64,000 nucleotides of DNA from Phaeobacter piscinae (GTDB lineage Bacteria > Pseudomonadota > Alphaproteobacteria > Rhodobacterales > Rhodobacteraceae): contig NZ_CP010683.1 in NCBI RefSeq assembly GCF_002407245.1, positions 38,010 to 102,009 of the forward strand, in the 5' to 3' direction. Below the pieces are notes generated by a model, which saw nothing but the letters and a program-made list of their open reading frames with translations, made no database searches and was not told where the DNA came from. Below are positions 14,842-22,272 of this stretch, piece after piece; the first letter of the stretch is position 1; every line of letters begins with the position of its first letter. Both the position numbers and the translations under genes were made by a program.

Positions 14842-14973
14842 CTATCTTTCTACGTTTCCCGAGAGGATTAGCCGCAATAAACCTGCCACTAAGACGAGCA
14901 CGACAACACTTAATATCCATATAATCGTCATCCAGCGCAGTCGCTTCCATAAGGTGGCTGACACTTTCTTCAT
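14842..14973 (-). CDS. DUF2474-type small membrane protein of cytochrome bd (CydX-like)
   Basis: A 43-residue protein with one transmembrane helix (TIIWILSVVVLVLVAGLL) after a basic stretch with LWKRLRW. This is the pattern of the DUF2474 family, usually encoded just after cydB of CIO-type oxidases and thought to act like the small subunit CydX. The start at 14973 has a strong GGAGGAAGAGGA before it. Here it is 755 bases from cydB, and the gap holds IS110 and IS3 relics. It was probably the third gene of the cyd operon before those insertions. Confidence 0.7.
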   Translation of the reverse strand: MKKVSATLWKRLRWMTIIWILSVVVLVLVAGLLRLILSGNVER

Positions 14974-15728
14974 TCCTCTTCCTCCGTCATGTTTACAGTC
15001 TCGAATAGGAGGTTGCATTCCCTGCGATTGCGTGTCTTCGGTAGACAGATAACATGGTACAGGCAATATTTTGGCGGTGCTCCGCTACCCAACCTTGGAC
15101 CGCCAGGAGCTGGCTTTTTCTGGCTCTGTCACAATGATGGGCTGGTAACGCCATCGGGATAATGCATGGTAATCATAACGTTCTATCCGATTGCCCTGCG
15201 GGGTCCTTCTTCATTTTAGTGCCGACGCCAATCCTCCGGTTTATCGCGGGCATCTGCAACGCTCATGAACCGGTTAGCGTTCAGGTAGCCAGCGCCAGTA
15301 GACTTTAGTCCATCCCTTCCTCTCGGGATAGACCAGGCTATGCCGCAGCGGGAAACTCTCAAGAAGCTGCCCCGGCAATCCTCCCCGACTTGCCCAACAG
15401 CTTCATTGCCACGCCCCAACCCAGTGATCTGCCAGTGCAGACCATATCCGAGGGCCTGCTCCAAAGAAGAAAAGCAGCTGTCGGGTTCTTCTACTGAGCC
15501 TTTAAAAAATGATTGGGGCGGTGGGCAATGTTGACTTCGTCGCCGCGTTCTCCGCCCGCAGCCGAAACGGTGGCTTTGTGGCGGTCCAGGCCTGTGTATA
15601 TGATATCCTGCATTTGGCCTCTACCCAATCTTTTGACACTACGCCAGCCAATCTGGCGCAACCCTCGTACGGAGAATGCCTCTGGAGAGACCACCGGCCC
15701 AGTCAACTGGTGACCCCGATCATCCGCT
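14974..15728. other. IS scar between cydB and the DUF2474 gene
   Basis: Holds minus-strand relics. At about 15491-15613 MQDIIYTGLDRHKATVS is an IS110/IS1111 transposase N-terminus. At about 15216-15300 RFMSVADARDKPEDWRR is an IS3 OrfB end. No intact gene is seen. Confidence 0.65.
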
Positions 15729-16733
15729 CTAGTGATACCCTTCATCACTGACCTTTCCGCGGAAAACCCAATATGCCCAAGCGGAATAGGTTAGTATGAT
15801 TGGAACAATGAAAACAGTACCCACCAACAGGAACTTTTGGCTTTCTCTCGGTGCTGCAGCGTCCCAAATCGTAACTGACGGGGGTACTGAATAAGGCAAG
15901 ACACTGATACCCAGGCCCACAAAACCCAGGAAGAACAATAGCAAAGCCATAAAAAATGGAATTCGGTCTGATCCACTCTTTATCCCACGGAAGAACACCA
16001 CAGAGCTTAATGCAACAAGTATCGGAACTGGTGCGGTAAACAACATGTGGGGTAGAGCGAACCATTTCTGCCAATATTCAATGCTCAGAAACGGCGTAGC
16101 TATACTTACCAGAACCAATGCCACAAGCGTTGCCACCCCGAGAGAAAGAGCCATCTTCCTCGCGTGCTCTTGAGCTTCCCCCTCGGTTTTCCAGATCAGC
16201 CAAGTTGAGCCTAGAAGGCTATATCCAACCACAACCGATACGCCTGTCAGAACGCTAAAGGGTGTCAGCCAATCCAACCAGTTTCCCGCATACATATTCT
16301 CTTCTACGCGCACTCCCTGCAGGATCGCACCTAGAGTCATACCCTGGCATAGTGCTGCAACCAACGAACCTGTCGTAAAAGCCAAATCCCAGAACCCTCT
16401 ATGCCGAGGGTCTCGCCAACGAAACTCAAATGCAACTCCTCGAAAAACGAGACCCAAAAGCATCGCAACCATAAGCGGATAGGTTGCCGGCAACAGGATC
16501 GAAAAGGCCAAAGGAAACATTGCCATAAGCCCTCCCCCACCAAGCACCAACCATGTTTCGTTCCCGTCCCATACAGGAGCAATAGAATTCATTGCTTGAT
16601 CGCGCTCGGCGCCAACTTTTAGACTCGGAAACAATATCCCAATCCCCAAATCGAAACCGTCCATCACGACATATGCGAAAACCGCAAATCCAATAATGCA
16701 GGCCCACATGACGGTTAAATCCATGTTTTCCAT
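15729..16733 (-). CDS. cydB: Cytochrome bd (cyanide-insensitive type) oxidase subunit II
   Basis: A 334-residue polytopic subunit (about eight or nine transmembrane helices) of the bd-type quinol oxidase. It has the N-terminal VVMDGFDLGIGIL and APVWDGNETWLVLGGGG segments characteristic of CydB/CioB. The start at 16733 has AGGAG seven bases upstream, inside the end of cydA, and the two genes are 3 bases apart. It follows cydA and, further up, ndh, fghA, the VOC gene and adhC of operon B. Confidence 0.95.
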   Translation of the reverse strand: MENMDLTVMWACIIGFAVFAYVVMDGFDLGIGILFPSLKVGAERDQAMNSIAPVWDGNETWLVLGGGGLMAMFPLAFSILLPATYPLMVAMLLGLVFRGVAFEFRWRDPRHRGFWDLAFTTGSLVAALCQGMTLGAILQGVRVEENMYAGNWLDWLTPFSVLTGVSVVVGYSLLGSTWLIWKTEGEAQEHARKMALSLGVATLVALVLVSIATPFLSIEYWQKWFALPHMLFTAPVPILVALSSVVFFRGIKSGSDRIPFFMALLLFFLGFVGLGISVLPYSVPPSVTIWDAAAPRESQKFLLVGTVFIVPIILTYSAWAYWVFRGKVSDEGYH

Positions 16734-16736
16734 GCC

Positions 16737-20964: not shown

Positions 20965-21015
20965 AGAGAACTTCCTTGATGTTTGGTGTTGATAGTAAAG
21001 ATTGCGACCCGCTGA

Positions 21016-22125
21016 TCAGTAGTGGATCACCGTGCGGATCGATTTGCCTTGGTGCATCAGATCGAAGGCTTCGTTGATGTCTTCGATGCCCATGGTGTGG
21101 GTGACAAAGGGTGCCAGGTCGATTTCACCTTTCATGGCGTCTTCGACCATGCCCGGCAGTTGGGTCCGCCCCTTGACCCCCCCGAAAGCGGAGCCCTTCC
21201 ACACACGACCGGTGACCAATTGGAACGGTCGCGTCGAGATTTCCTGGCCTGCGCCAGCAACCCCGATGACGATCGATTGACCCCAGCCACGGTGAGCCGC
21301 CTCCAGAGCCGCACGCATGACGTGAACGTTGCCGATACACTCGAAGGTGTGGTCAATACCCCAGCCGGTCATTTCAATGAGGACTTCTTGAATCGGCTTT
21401 TCGTAGTCCTTCGGATTGATGCAGTCGGTGGCTCCGAACTGACGTGCCAACTCGAACTTGTCCGGGTTGGTATCGATTGCGATAATGCGCCCAGCTTTCG
21501 CTTGGCGTGCCCCCTGAATGGCGGCAAGGCCAATCCCTCCGAGACCAAAGACGGCAACGGAGTCGCCCGGCTGCACTTTGGCGGTGTTGTGGACCGCGCC
21601 GATACCGGTGGTCACGCCGCACCCGAGCAAACATACATGCTCATGGTTGGCTTCGGGGTTGATCTTGGCCAGGGAGACCTCTGCCACAACCGTGTACTCA
21701 GAGAATGTCGAGCAACCCATGTAGTGAAAGAGGGGCTGACCCTTATACGAGAAGCGGGTGGTTCCGTCAGGCATCAAGCCCTTACCTTGGGTCGCGCGCA
21801 CCGCGACGCAGAGATTGGTCTTACCGGACTTGCAGAACTCACACTCACCGCATTCAGCGGTATAGAGCGGGATGACGTGGTCGCCCGGCTTGACGCTCGT
21901 GACGCCCTCACCCACCTCGACCACGACACCAGCGCCTTCATGGCCCAGAACCACGGGGAAAATCCCTTCCGGATCATTGCCGGACAAAGTGAACGCATCG
22001 GTGTGACAAACACCGGTGTGGGAAACTTTGATGAGGACCTCACCCTTCTGGGGAGGCGCAACATCGATTTCTACGATTTCAAGCGGTTTACCTGCTTCAA
22101 AGGCTACGGCGGCACGTGACTTCAT
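21016..22125 (-). CDS. adhC: S-(hydroxymethyl)glutathione dehydrogenase (class III ADH), copy B
   Basis: A 369-residue class III alcohol dehydrogenase with the same zinc ligands as copy A (Cys40, His62; structural Cys92, 95, 98, 106) and the GSH-site segment [12 protein letters not shown]. It differs from copy A at five residues, while the DNA differs at many silent sites. That shows two long-separated copies, in contrast to the identical ndh and fghA genes behind them. Start at 22125 as in copy A. First gene of operon B, which ends in cytochrome bd. Confidence 0.96.
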
Positions 22126-22243
22126 TTTCGTATTCCTTGTTGGTTGAAACGGAACCTTTGGGAGCATGCGAACATGCTTGGAGTACGCTTTCCGGGCTGA
22201 TGTAATCAGCGGGGTTTGAAGCGCCCCTCACTCCTCCTACGAT

Positions 22244-22272
22244 TTTCTAGCATACTCCTGGGGAGTATGCAA
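22244..22272 (-). promoter_or_regulatory. adhC promoter B with perfect operator dyad
   Basis: On the minus strand, -35 TTGCAT (22272-22267) and -10 TAGAAA (22249-22244) are 17 bases apart. The spacer region carries GCATACTCC-TGG-GGAGTATGC (22250-22270), a perfect 9-bp dyad with a G/C-rich centre like CsoR/FrmR-family operators. The arms keep GCATACT/AGTATGC of promoter A, while the centre differs. Confidence 0.75.

Follow-up and report, generated by a model that had tools for sequence, protein, structure and literature searches.

Why should a set of genes for formaldehyde oxidation run directly into genes for a respiratory chain? The question is raised by a stretch of 64,000 nucleotides of Phaeobacter piscinae DNA (the window), which belongs to plasmid pP18_c of strain P18 (100% identity over the compared stretch). 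Here, seven genes on the minus strand read adhC, VOC, fghA, ndh, cydA, cydB and a small gene for a DUF2474 protein. A first-pass annotation of the window had read them as one operon and as a dedicated electron-overflow module for formaldehyde bursts, for example from methylated compounds; the order and the strand are confirmed, and profile matches confirm all of the families that it named. Our own reading, which we consider probable rather than secure, is that the sequence describes an operon for formaldehyde resistance, borne on a plasmid and equipped with a respiratory chain of its own that regenerates NAD+, and that it serves against external formaldehyde and not in methylotrophy.

We propose the following mechanism. 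Formaldehyde and glutathione would form an adduct that AdhC would oxidize to S-formylglutathione, and FghA would then release formate. Each formaldehyde oxidized by AdhC gives one NADH, and formate dehydrogenase may give another. The type II NADH:quinone oxidoreductase (NDH-2) of the cassette would hand the electrons of NADH to quinone with no proton pumping, and those of quinol would reach oxygen through the CIO-type bd oxidase. Detoxification would thereby not stall for NAD+, and it would be independent of complex I, bc1 and the haem-copper oxidases; the disposal of NADH would be what selects for the oxidase. A FrmR-type operator at adhC would turn the operon on, and an old duplication in Phaeobacter, by setting one cassette directly before cydAB, would have brought the oxidase under the adhC promoter. 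The earlier suggestion that NADH could be burned off whatever the membrane potential goes too far: through vectorial chemistry a bd oxidase still generates some membrane potential, and only the NDH-2 step is non-electrogenic.

A duplicated cassette and the ndh-cydA junction

The adhC-VOC-fghA-ndh cassette is present twice in the window, at 2219-6425 and 18201-22409 (Table 1). The two copies are 97% identical, with ~2.4 kb at 100%, and they diverge ~6 bp past the ndh stop codon; copy 1 continues into a DUF3422 gene and copy 2 into cydAB. Both junctions are also present in P36, a sister plasmid that we read in detail and whose gene order is as in P18. Besides P18, three P. piscinae records, of one 117,673-bp type, match at 91% identity over 91% of the query.

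How old is the ndh-cydA junction? Between P18 and P36, cydA is 86.5% and cydB 83.1% identical at the DNA level, with dS of 0.72 and 0.87. The corresponding dN/dS values are 0.043 for cydA, 0.072 for cydB and 0.074 for ndh, for which dS is 0.28. Low dN/dS at such distances, together with the shared junction, argues that the arrangement is old and that CydAB has been maintained, and the substitution pattern indicates that cydAB is under purifying selection. We therefore reject a recent chance fusion of ndh and cydA. Nonetheless, the region is not wholly old: P18 and P36 show no difference in fdhA and adhC copy 2 (100% identity), and part of the region has thus been exchanged recently. Since these genes are identical while cydAB differs by 13-17%, the region is best described as a recombining mosaic. 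Gene conversion is indicated as well, because the ndh copies are identical within P18 and 99.6% identical within P36, and 93% identical between the plasmids.

From adhC through cydB all genes lie on one strand with the short gaps that had been claimed (51, 157, 21, 57 and 3 bp), and there is no minus-strand terminator match in the ndh-cydA gap of P18. A scan for promoters and terminators gave the same numbers of matches as shuffled sequences. The claim of short gaps fails at the CydX-like gene: DUF2474 lies 710 bp past cydB, beyond a repeat of ~200 bp, whereas in Shinella and Sphingomonas the small-subunit gene follows cydB directly. The repeat is probably derived from a mobile element; it occurs in the window at 15080-15271 and 10654-10845, and in three copies in the P36 stretch. 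No DUF2474 gene turned up in the stretch of P36, which spans 47.7 kb.

The assignment of the oxidase to the CIO type holds. CydA residues H22, E102, E110, H189 and M331, and the K/E of the Q-loop, are identical to the aligned E. coli CydA when read by eye; the E. coli haem and quinol residues we take to be H19, E99, E107, H186, M393, K252 and E257. The Q-loop is short, with the first aligned stretch ending at query 313/E. coli 310 and the second starting at query 313/E. coli 375. The protein has GRQPF in place of GRQPW, which is nothing special, since F or Y stands at that place in 63 of the 81 sequences of the CydA set. For NDH-2, the family matches show a two-Rossmann FAD/NADH fold with an NDH2 C-terminal domain, and NADH:quinone activity without proton pumping is predicted; the best solved relative is NADH:ubiquinone reductase (non-electrogenic) 9mqy (E 1.3e-108, residues 27-442).

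Formaldehyde islands and the histories of NDH-2 and CydA

These genes belong to a mobile island for formaldehyde resistance, together with frmR, fdhA, DUF3422, uvrB and a bestrophin-family gene. The second cassette copy, frmR, and the fdhA and bestrophin genes upstream had not entered the first-pass annotation. Related islands are found on other alpha-, beta- and gammaproteobacterial plasmids. That of Shinella reads, all on one strand, frmR, LysR, fdhA, adhC, VOC, fghA, ndh, DUF3422, uvrB, cydA, cydB, DUF2474, bestrophin and SDR. In Sphingomonas, AAP5 and Methylobacterium XJLW the order is adhC-VOC-fghA-ndh-DUF3422-uvrB, and frmR and cydAB-DUF2474-bestrophin are divergent. Plasmids of Citrobacter and Aeromonas salmonicida carry adhC-VOC-DUF3422-fghA-ndh with uvrA, uvrB and two frmR genes, and cydAB-DUF2474 on the other strand. 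The Agrobacterium cassette has no annotated ndh; a tblastn search reveals a partial gene that matches 42% of the query length. In each of three Pseudomonas genomes (L003-L008) there are two fghA-ndh loci, nearly identical to each other. One is accompanied by frmR, DUF3422 and uvrA, the other by LysR and uvrB, with cydAB 5.5 kb past ndh; this is a second case of a doubled cassette with the oxidase beyond one copy.

Is the proximity of NDH-2 and the oxidase more than chance? Among the best 60 of 864 records, 12 have an NDH match of at least 75% identity, and all 12 also have a CydA match, 0.06 to ~7 kb from an ndh. In enterobacteria, 89 records contain at least 80% of the core cassette and 63 at least 80% of the cydAB-DUF2474 stretch, two of the latter being the 83% relative described below. 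By hand count, 37 of the 60 listed enterobacterial cassette records are also among the 60 listed cydAB records, an overlap that refers to co-occurrence in a record and not to distance; most records are near-copies of a single island. For comparison we took 58 other CydA loci from genomes of the same class or family: within ~1.5-kb flanks, none adjoins an NDH-2 of at least 45% identity, and one has a partial NDH-2 match at 28%. The adjacency of ndh and cydA therefore exceeds chance.

The two proteins have different histories. The NDH-2 proteins of the islands form one clade that spans alpha-, beta- and gammaproteobacteria (9 of the 9 rows used; SH-aLRT 99 with a quick tree method; near-copies L004, L005, L006, L008, L033, L034, L035, L065 and L088 dropped beforehand). 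The island CydA proteins do not (7 rows among 75, after near-copies L004, L005, L097, L128, L131 and L134 had been dropped): the labels change four times or more along starred branches, and a single change occurs in 0% of 200 bootstrap trees. Enterobacterial and Pseudomonas CydA group with CioA-type enzymes and are ~54-55% identical to that of the window, and the alphaproteobacterial island CydA form a separate clade together with plasmid CydA that are not associated with formaldehyde genes. Such a tree requires several recruitments, or some gains and losses. Hence, NDH-2 is an inherited core component and the oxidase an addition, and bd oxidases have probably been recruited repeatedly by the islands.

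These observations suggest a broader reading, which we find quite possible while stopping short of calling it probable: the islands may be complete electron paths from formaldehyde to oxygen, with NDH-2 at the core and with bd oxidases acquired on several independent occasions and placed under the control of formaldehyde by more than one route. One route could be a position behind the adhC promoter (Phaeobacter, perhaps Shinella), another a FrmR-type operator that serves frmR as well (Sphingomonas type). The limit for such resistance to overcome would then lie in NAD+ regeneration and not in the amount of enzyme.

Sequence identity to the window differs among the island proteins. Across alpha-, beta- and gammaproteobacterial islands (L085-L088, L093, L094), AdhC is 91-96% identical to that of the window, NDH-2 69-78% and FghA 73-79%. 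In four alphaproteobacterial islands (L085, L086, L093, L128), the gene immediately after cydAB-DUF2474 is of the bestrophin family, and our guess is that it encodes a formate or bicarbonate channel. A Klebsiella pneumoniae plasmid (L096) carries a cydAB-DUF2474 stretch with 83% DNA identity to that of the Citrobacter island, near genes for an FdhF/YdeP oxidoreductase, fdhD, moaABCDE and bestrophin; no adhC or fghA match was found in 21 kb, and the cluster is perhaps a formate-linked relative. The CydA proteins of two Paracoccus loci (L091, L092) are among the closest that do not belong to formaldehyde islands (73-75%). Both loci have a Dyp-peroxidase match nearby, and L091 also has one to bestrophin; neither adhC nor fghA was matched in 19 kb. 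VOC matches occur in 5 of 385 species-representative genomes of the class and 4 of 394 of the family, the window's own being included in both; besides that one, a single match reaches 76% and the others 46-52%. In the 20 kb around the 76% relative, adhC and VOC were the only matches to 18 queries.

FrmR and operator-like sites

FrmR sites at the E. coli frm promoter (Pfrm) are described as ATAC and GTAT flanking a 9-bp GC-rich tract (PMC5146963). The palindrome ATACTCC-NNN-GGAGTAT upstream of adhC copy 2 has this form and is a candidate operator; the exact palindrome occurs once in the 4.13-Mb genome. In P36 it stands before both adhC genes, and in Shinella it stands in tandem, with 5 of the 9 central bases being G or C. 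The sites before adhC in Sphingomonas, AAP5 and Methylobacterium have two mismatches, as does that of copy 1 in P18. These three islands, which are close relatives, also share an ATAC-N9-GTAT site (ATACTGGTGGGGAGTAT) between frmR and cydA, a match that 1-2 of 2000 shuffles reach; this site may serve frmR alone. Cys35 of FrmR is invariant in 6 of 6 aligned proteins. A further ATAC-N9-GTAT site with a GC-rich centre lies ~310 bp upstream of uvrB, which may belong to the same regulon.

Table 1. Features of the window discussed in the text, with window coordinates
Feature	Position	Strand	Evidence or remark
DUF3422 protein, downstream of ndh copy 1	900..2201	-	PF11902 in Shinella homologue
Cassette copy 1 (ndh 2225-3577, fghA 3599-4426, VOC 4584-4982, adhC 5034-6143)	2219..6425	-	97% identity to 18201-22409
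Degenerate operator copy upstream of adhC copy 1 (candidate)	6269..6285	.	2 mismatches
frmR-type repressor	9240..9530	-	PF02583; Cys35 present, Leu replaces Pro2
DUF2474 small membrane protein (CydX/CioZ-like)	14842..15018	-	PF10617 27.8 bits (cut-off 26.6)
cydB, bd quinol oxidase subunit II	15729..16733	-	PF02322 328 bits; TIGR00203
cydA, CIO-type (short Q-loop) bd quinol oxidase subunit I	16737..18149	-	PF01654 540 bits (cut-off 26.2); alignment to E. coli CydA
ndh-cydA gap, 57 bp	18150..18206	-	Duplication edge ~6 bp past ndh stop; hairpin weak in P18, strong in P36
ndh copy 2, NDH-2	18207..19559	-	PF07992 173.9 bits, PF22366 NDH2_C 37.1 bits; island clade
fghA copy 2, S-formylglutathione hydrolase	19581..20408	-	TIGR02821 420.2 bits (cut-off 281.7)
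VOC-family protein, no assigned function	20566..20964	-	PF00903; occurs in the cassettes compared
adhC copy 2, S-(hydroxymethyl)glutathione dehydrogenase, class III ADH	21016..22125	-	TIGR02818 735.5 bits (cut-off 543.95); annotated start
Palindrome upstream of adhC copy 2, FrmR-type operator (candidate)	22252..22268	.	ATACTCC-NNN-GGAGTAT; form as in PMC5146963
fdhA-like dehydrogenase	22850..24046	-	TIGR02819 565 bits, below cut-off 636.95
Bestrophin-family channel	24378..25250	-	PF25539
uvrB	29595..31571	+	ATAC-N9-GTAT site 29268-29284 upstream

Weighing the explanations against known systems

Which source of formaldehyde do the genes deal with? Counterparts of adhC (62%), fghA (53%) and cydA (66%) are present on the P18 chromosome, as are complex I and a formate dehydrogenase; apart from the two ndh copies on the plasmid, NDH-2 has only one weak and partial match in this genome (30% over 124 residues). 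The plasmid set is thus an addition, as a resistance determinant would be. P18 comes from fish-larvae aquaculture in Spain, and aquaculture still uses formalin baths according to PMC10090776. An acquired plasmid set beside chromosomal counterparts, in aquaculture strains, fits external formaldehyde better than the methylated compounds of the first-pass annotation. An overflow module for formaldehyde made internally from such compounds seems to us very improbable, even though roseobacters degrade methylated compounds. The island also occurs in enterobacteria, in Acinetobacter and in a Comamonas from metalworking fluid, P18 has an adhC and an fghA on its chromosome, and no methyltransferase, demethylase or C1-assimilation gene is among the 37 annotated features of a 46-kb stretch (an incomplete gene table). 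With no C1-assimilation or demethylase gene annotated there, we rejected methylotrophy as the setting.

Several observations weigh against a resistance operon that includes its own respiratory chain. The order from adhC to cydB recurs in P36, but other islands arrange cydAB differently or lack it: it is on the opposite strand in the Sphingomonas-type and Citrobacter islands, and two CydA queries found no cydA match in the stretches from Diaphorobacter, Enterobacter CP042489, Agrobacterium, Aeromonas caviae, Comamonas MWF001 and Acinetobacter pittii (17.7 to 29.2 kb, that of Diaphorobacter ending at the start of the record). cydAB is therefore an optional member of the island, and the single operon of the first-pass annotation stays a proposal. 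On other plasmids, related CydAB has sulfur, chromate and arsenic genes for neighbours. The region upstream of cydA showed no operator in P18, Shinella, Citrobacter or Pseudomonas, nor did that upstream of frmR in P18 or Shinella. Salmonella FrmR is reported to need Pro2 for formaldehyde sensing (PMC5016687). FrmR of P18 and P36 has Leu2, while the other five island proteins (Shinella, Sphingomonas, Methylobacterium and both of Citrobacter) keep Pro2; the response of the Phaeobacter proteins to formaldehyde is possibly changed or lost, which speaks against simple induction there. Induction by formaldehyde and co-transcription across the ndh-cydA gap are both inferred parts of our proposal. Against read-through, this gap contains in P36 (about 31733-31792) a 14-bp hairpin (z -4.6) that could stop transcription between the two genes; the hairpin of P18 is weak (z 0.0). 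What stands of the dedicated overflow module is that NDH-2 travels with the cassette as one clade, that CIO-type cydAB recurs from separate CydA lineages, and that FrmR-type operator sequences precede adhC and, in three islands, lie between frmR and cydA.

An alternative explanation for the oxidase is resistance to poisoning. Formaldehyde or formate would impair the haem-copper oxidases, CydAB would take over as a resistant terminal oxidase and NDH-2 would replace damaged complex I, with NADH overflow being secondary. This is the main rival, and the present data do not separate it from NAD+ regeneration; we consider it unlikely, but serious. The enzyme is of the CIO type by sequence, the neighbourhoods of its close relatives on other plasmids (sulfur, chromate, arsenic) suit such a role, formate inhibits mitochondrial cytochrome c oxidase, and the bestrophin beside cydAB-DUF2474 in four islands might export formate. 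Poison resistance alone does not explain why NDH-2 is the stable core and cydAB the optional part. It is less probable still, in our view, that cydAB is a general stress passenger, functionally uncoupled and brought next to ndh as a by-product of duplication among insertion sequences (IS). The junction does lie at the edge of the 4.2-kb duplication, IS genes are nearby, cydAB has a lower G+C content (0.49-0.50) than adhC and VOC (0.58-0.61), and both the mosaic structure of the region and the P36 hairpin fit a passenger. A passenger would not be expected to be associated with the cassette recurrently and from separate CydA lineages, to keep its junction over dS of 0.7-0.9 with low dN, or to share an intergenic region with frmR that contains an operator-like site. 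Hence, we retain the resistance operon with its own NAD+-regenerating chain as the preferred reading.

What would such a chain mean? Formaldehyde is a disinfectant and, via methenamine, is used against urinary infections, and the plasmid resistance described to date is chiefly of the adhC/frmA kind. If a path of their own from NADH to oxygen is needed by the islands, redox disposal is a second limit on formaldehyde tolerance, an idea that might be put to use in engineering the metabolism of methanol or formaldehyde. That the pairing recurs may also be one reason for bd oxidases to be carried on plasmids. The respiratory extension of known plasmid formaldehyde resistance appears to be new: in the open-licence literature we found, by title, no paper that joins formaldehyde resistance to a bd oxidase or NDH-2, and no formaldehyde paper naming DUF3422 among the matches listed. 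A search of that literature alone is no proof of novelty.

Four known systems invite comparison. A Steroidobacteraceae metagenome-assembled genome (L054, 1133-4931) has ndh-cydA-cydB-DUF2474 in a row, with an NDH-2 gene directly before a related cydAB; unlike P18, it has no adhC, VOC or fghA match in its 10-kb contig, and its NDH-2 falls outside the island clade. Its pairing thus arose separately, and we rejected it as the ancestor of the ndh-cydA pairing. Plasmid-borne formaldehyde resistance through adhC/frmA is known from E. coli plasmids of the pVU3695 type, which likewise encode a glutathione-dependent formaldehyde dehydrogenase and have frmA and frmB “interspersed with other genes” (PMC13029678). 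The main text of that paper mentions no cyd gene or NADH dehydrogenase, whereas the island here has NDH-2 and a bd oxidase; the two are set apart by description, not by sequence. The chromosomal frmRAB operons of E. coli and Salmonella share with P18 a FrmR-type repressor, an ATAC/GTAT operator with a 9-bp GC-rich centre, AdhC/FrmA and FghA/FrmB. In contrast to them, P18 adds VOC, NDH-2, DUF3422 and cydAB, its FrmR is without Pro2, and its frmR lies ~3.1 and 11.5 kb from the two adhC copies. With the CIO-type cytochrome bd oxidases (cioAB), the plasmid enzyme has in common a CydA with a short Q-loop, CydB and a DUF2474 small subunit. It differs in belonging to a lineage distinct from the chromosomal copy of its host (66%), and in its position behind a formaldehyde cassette.

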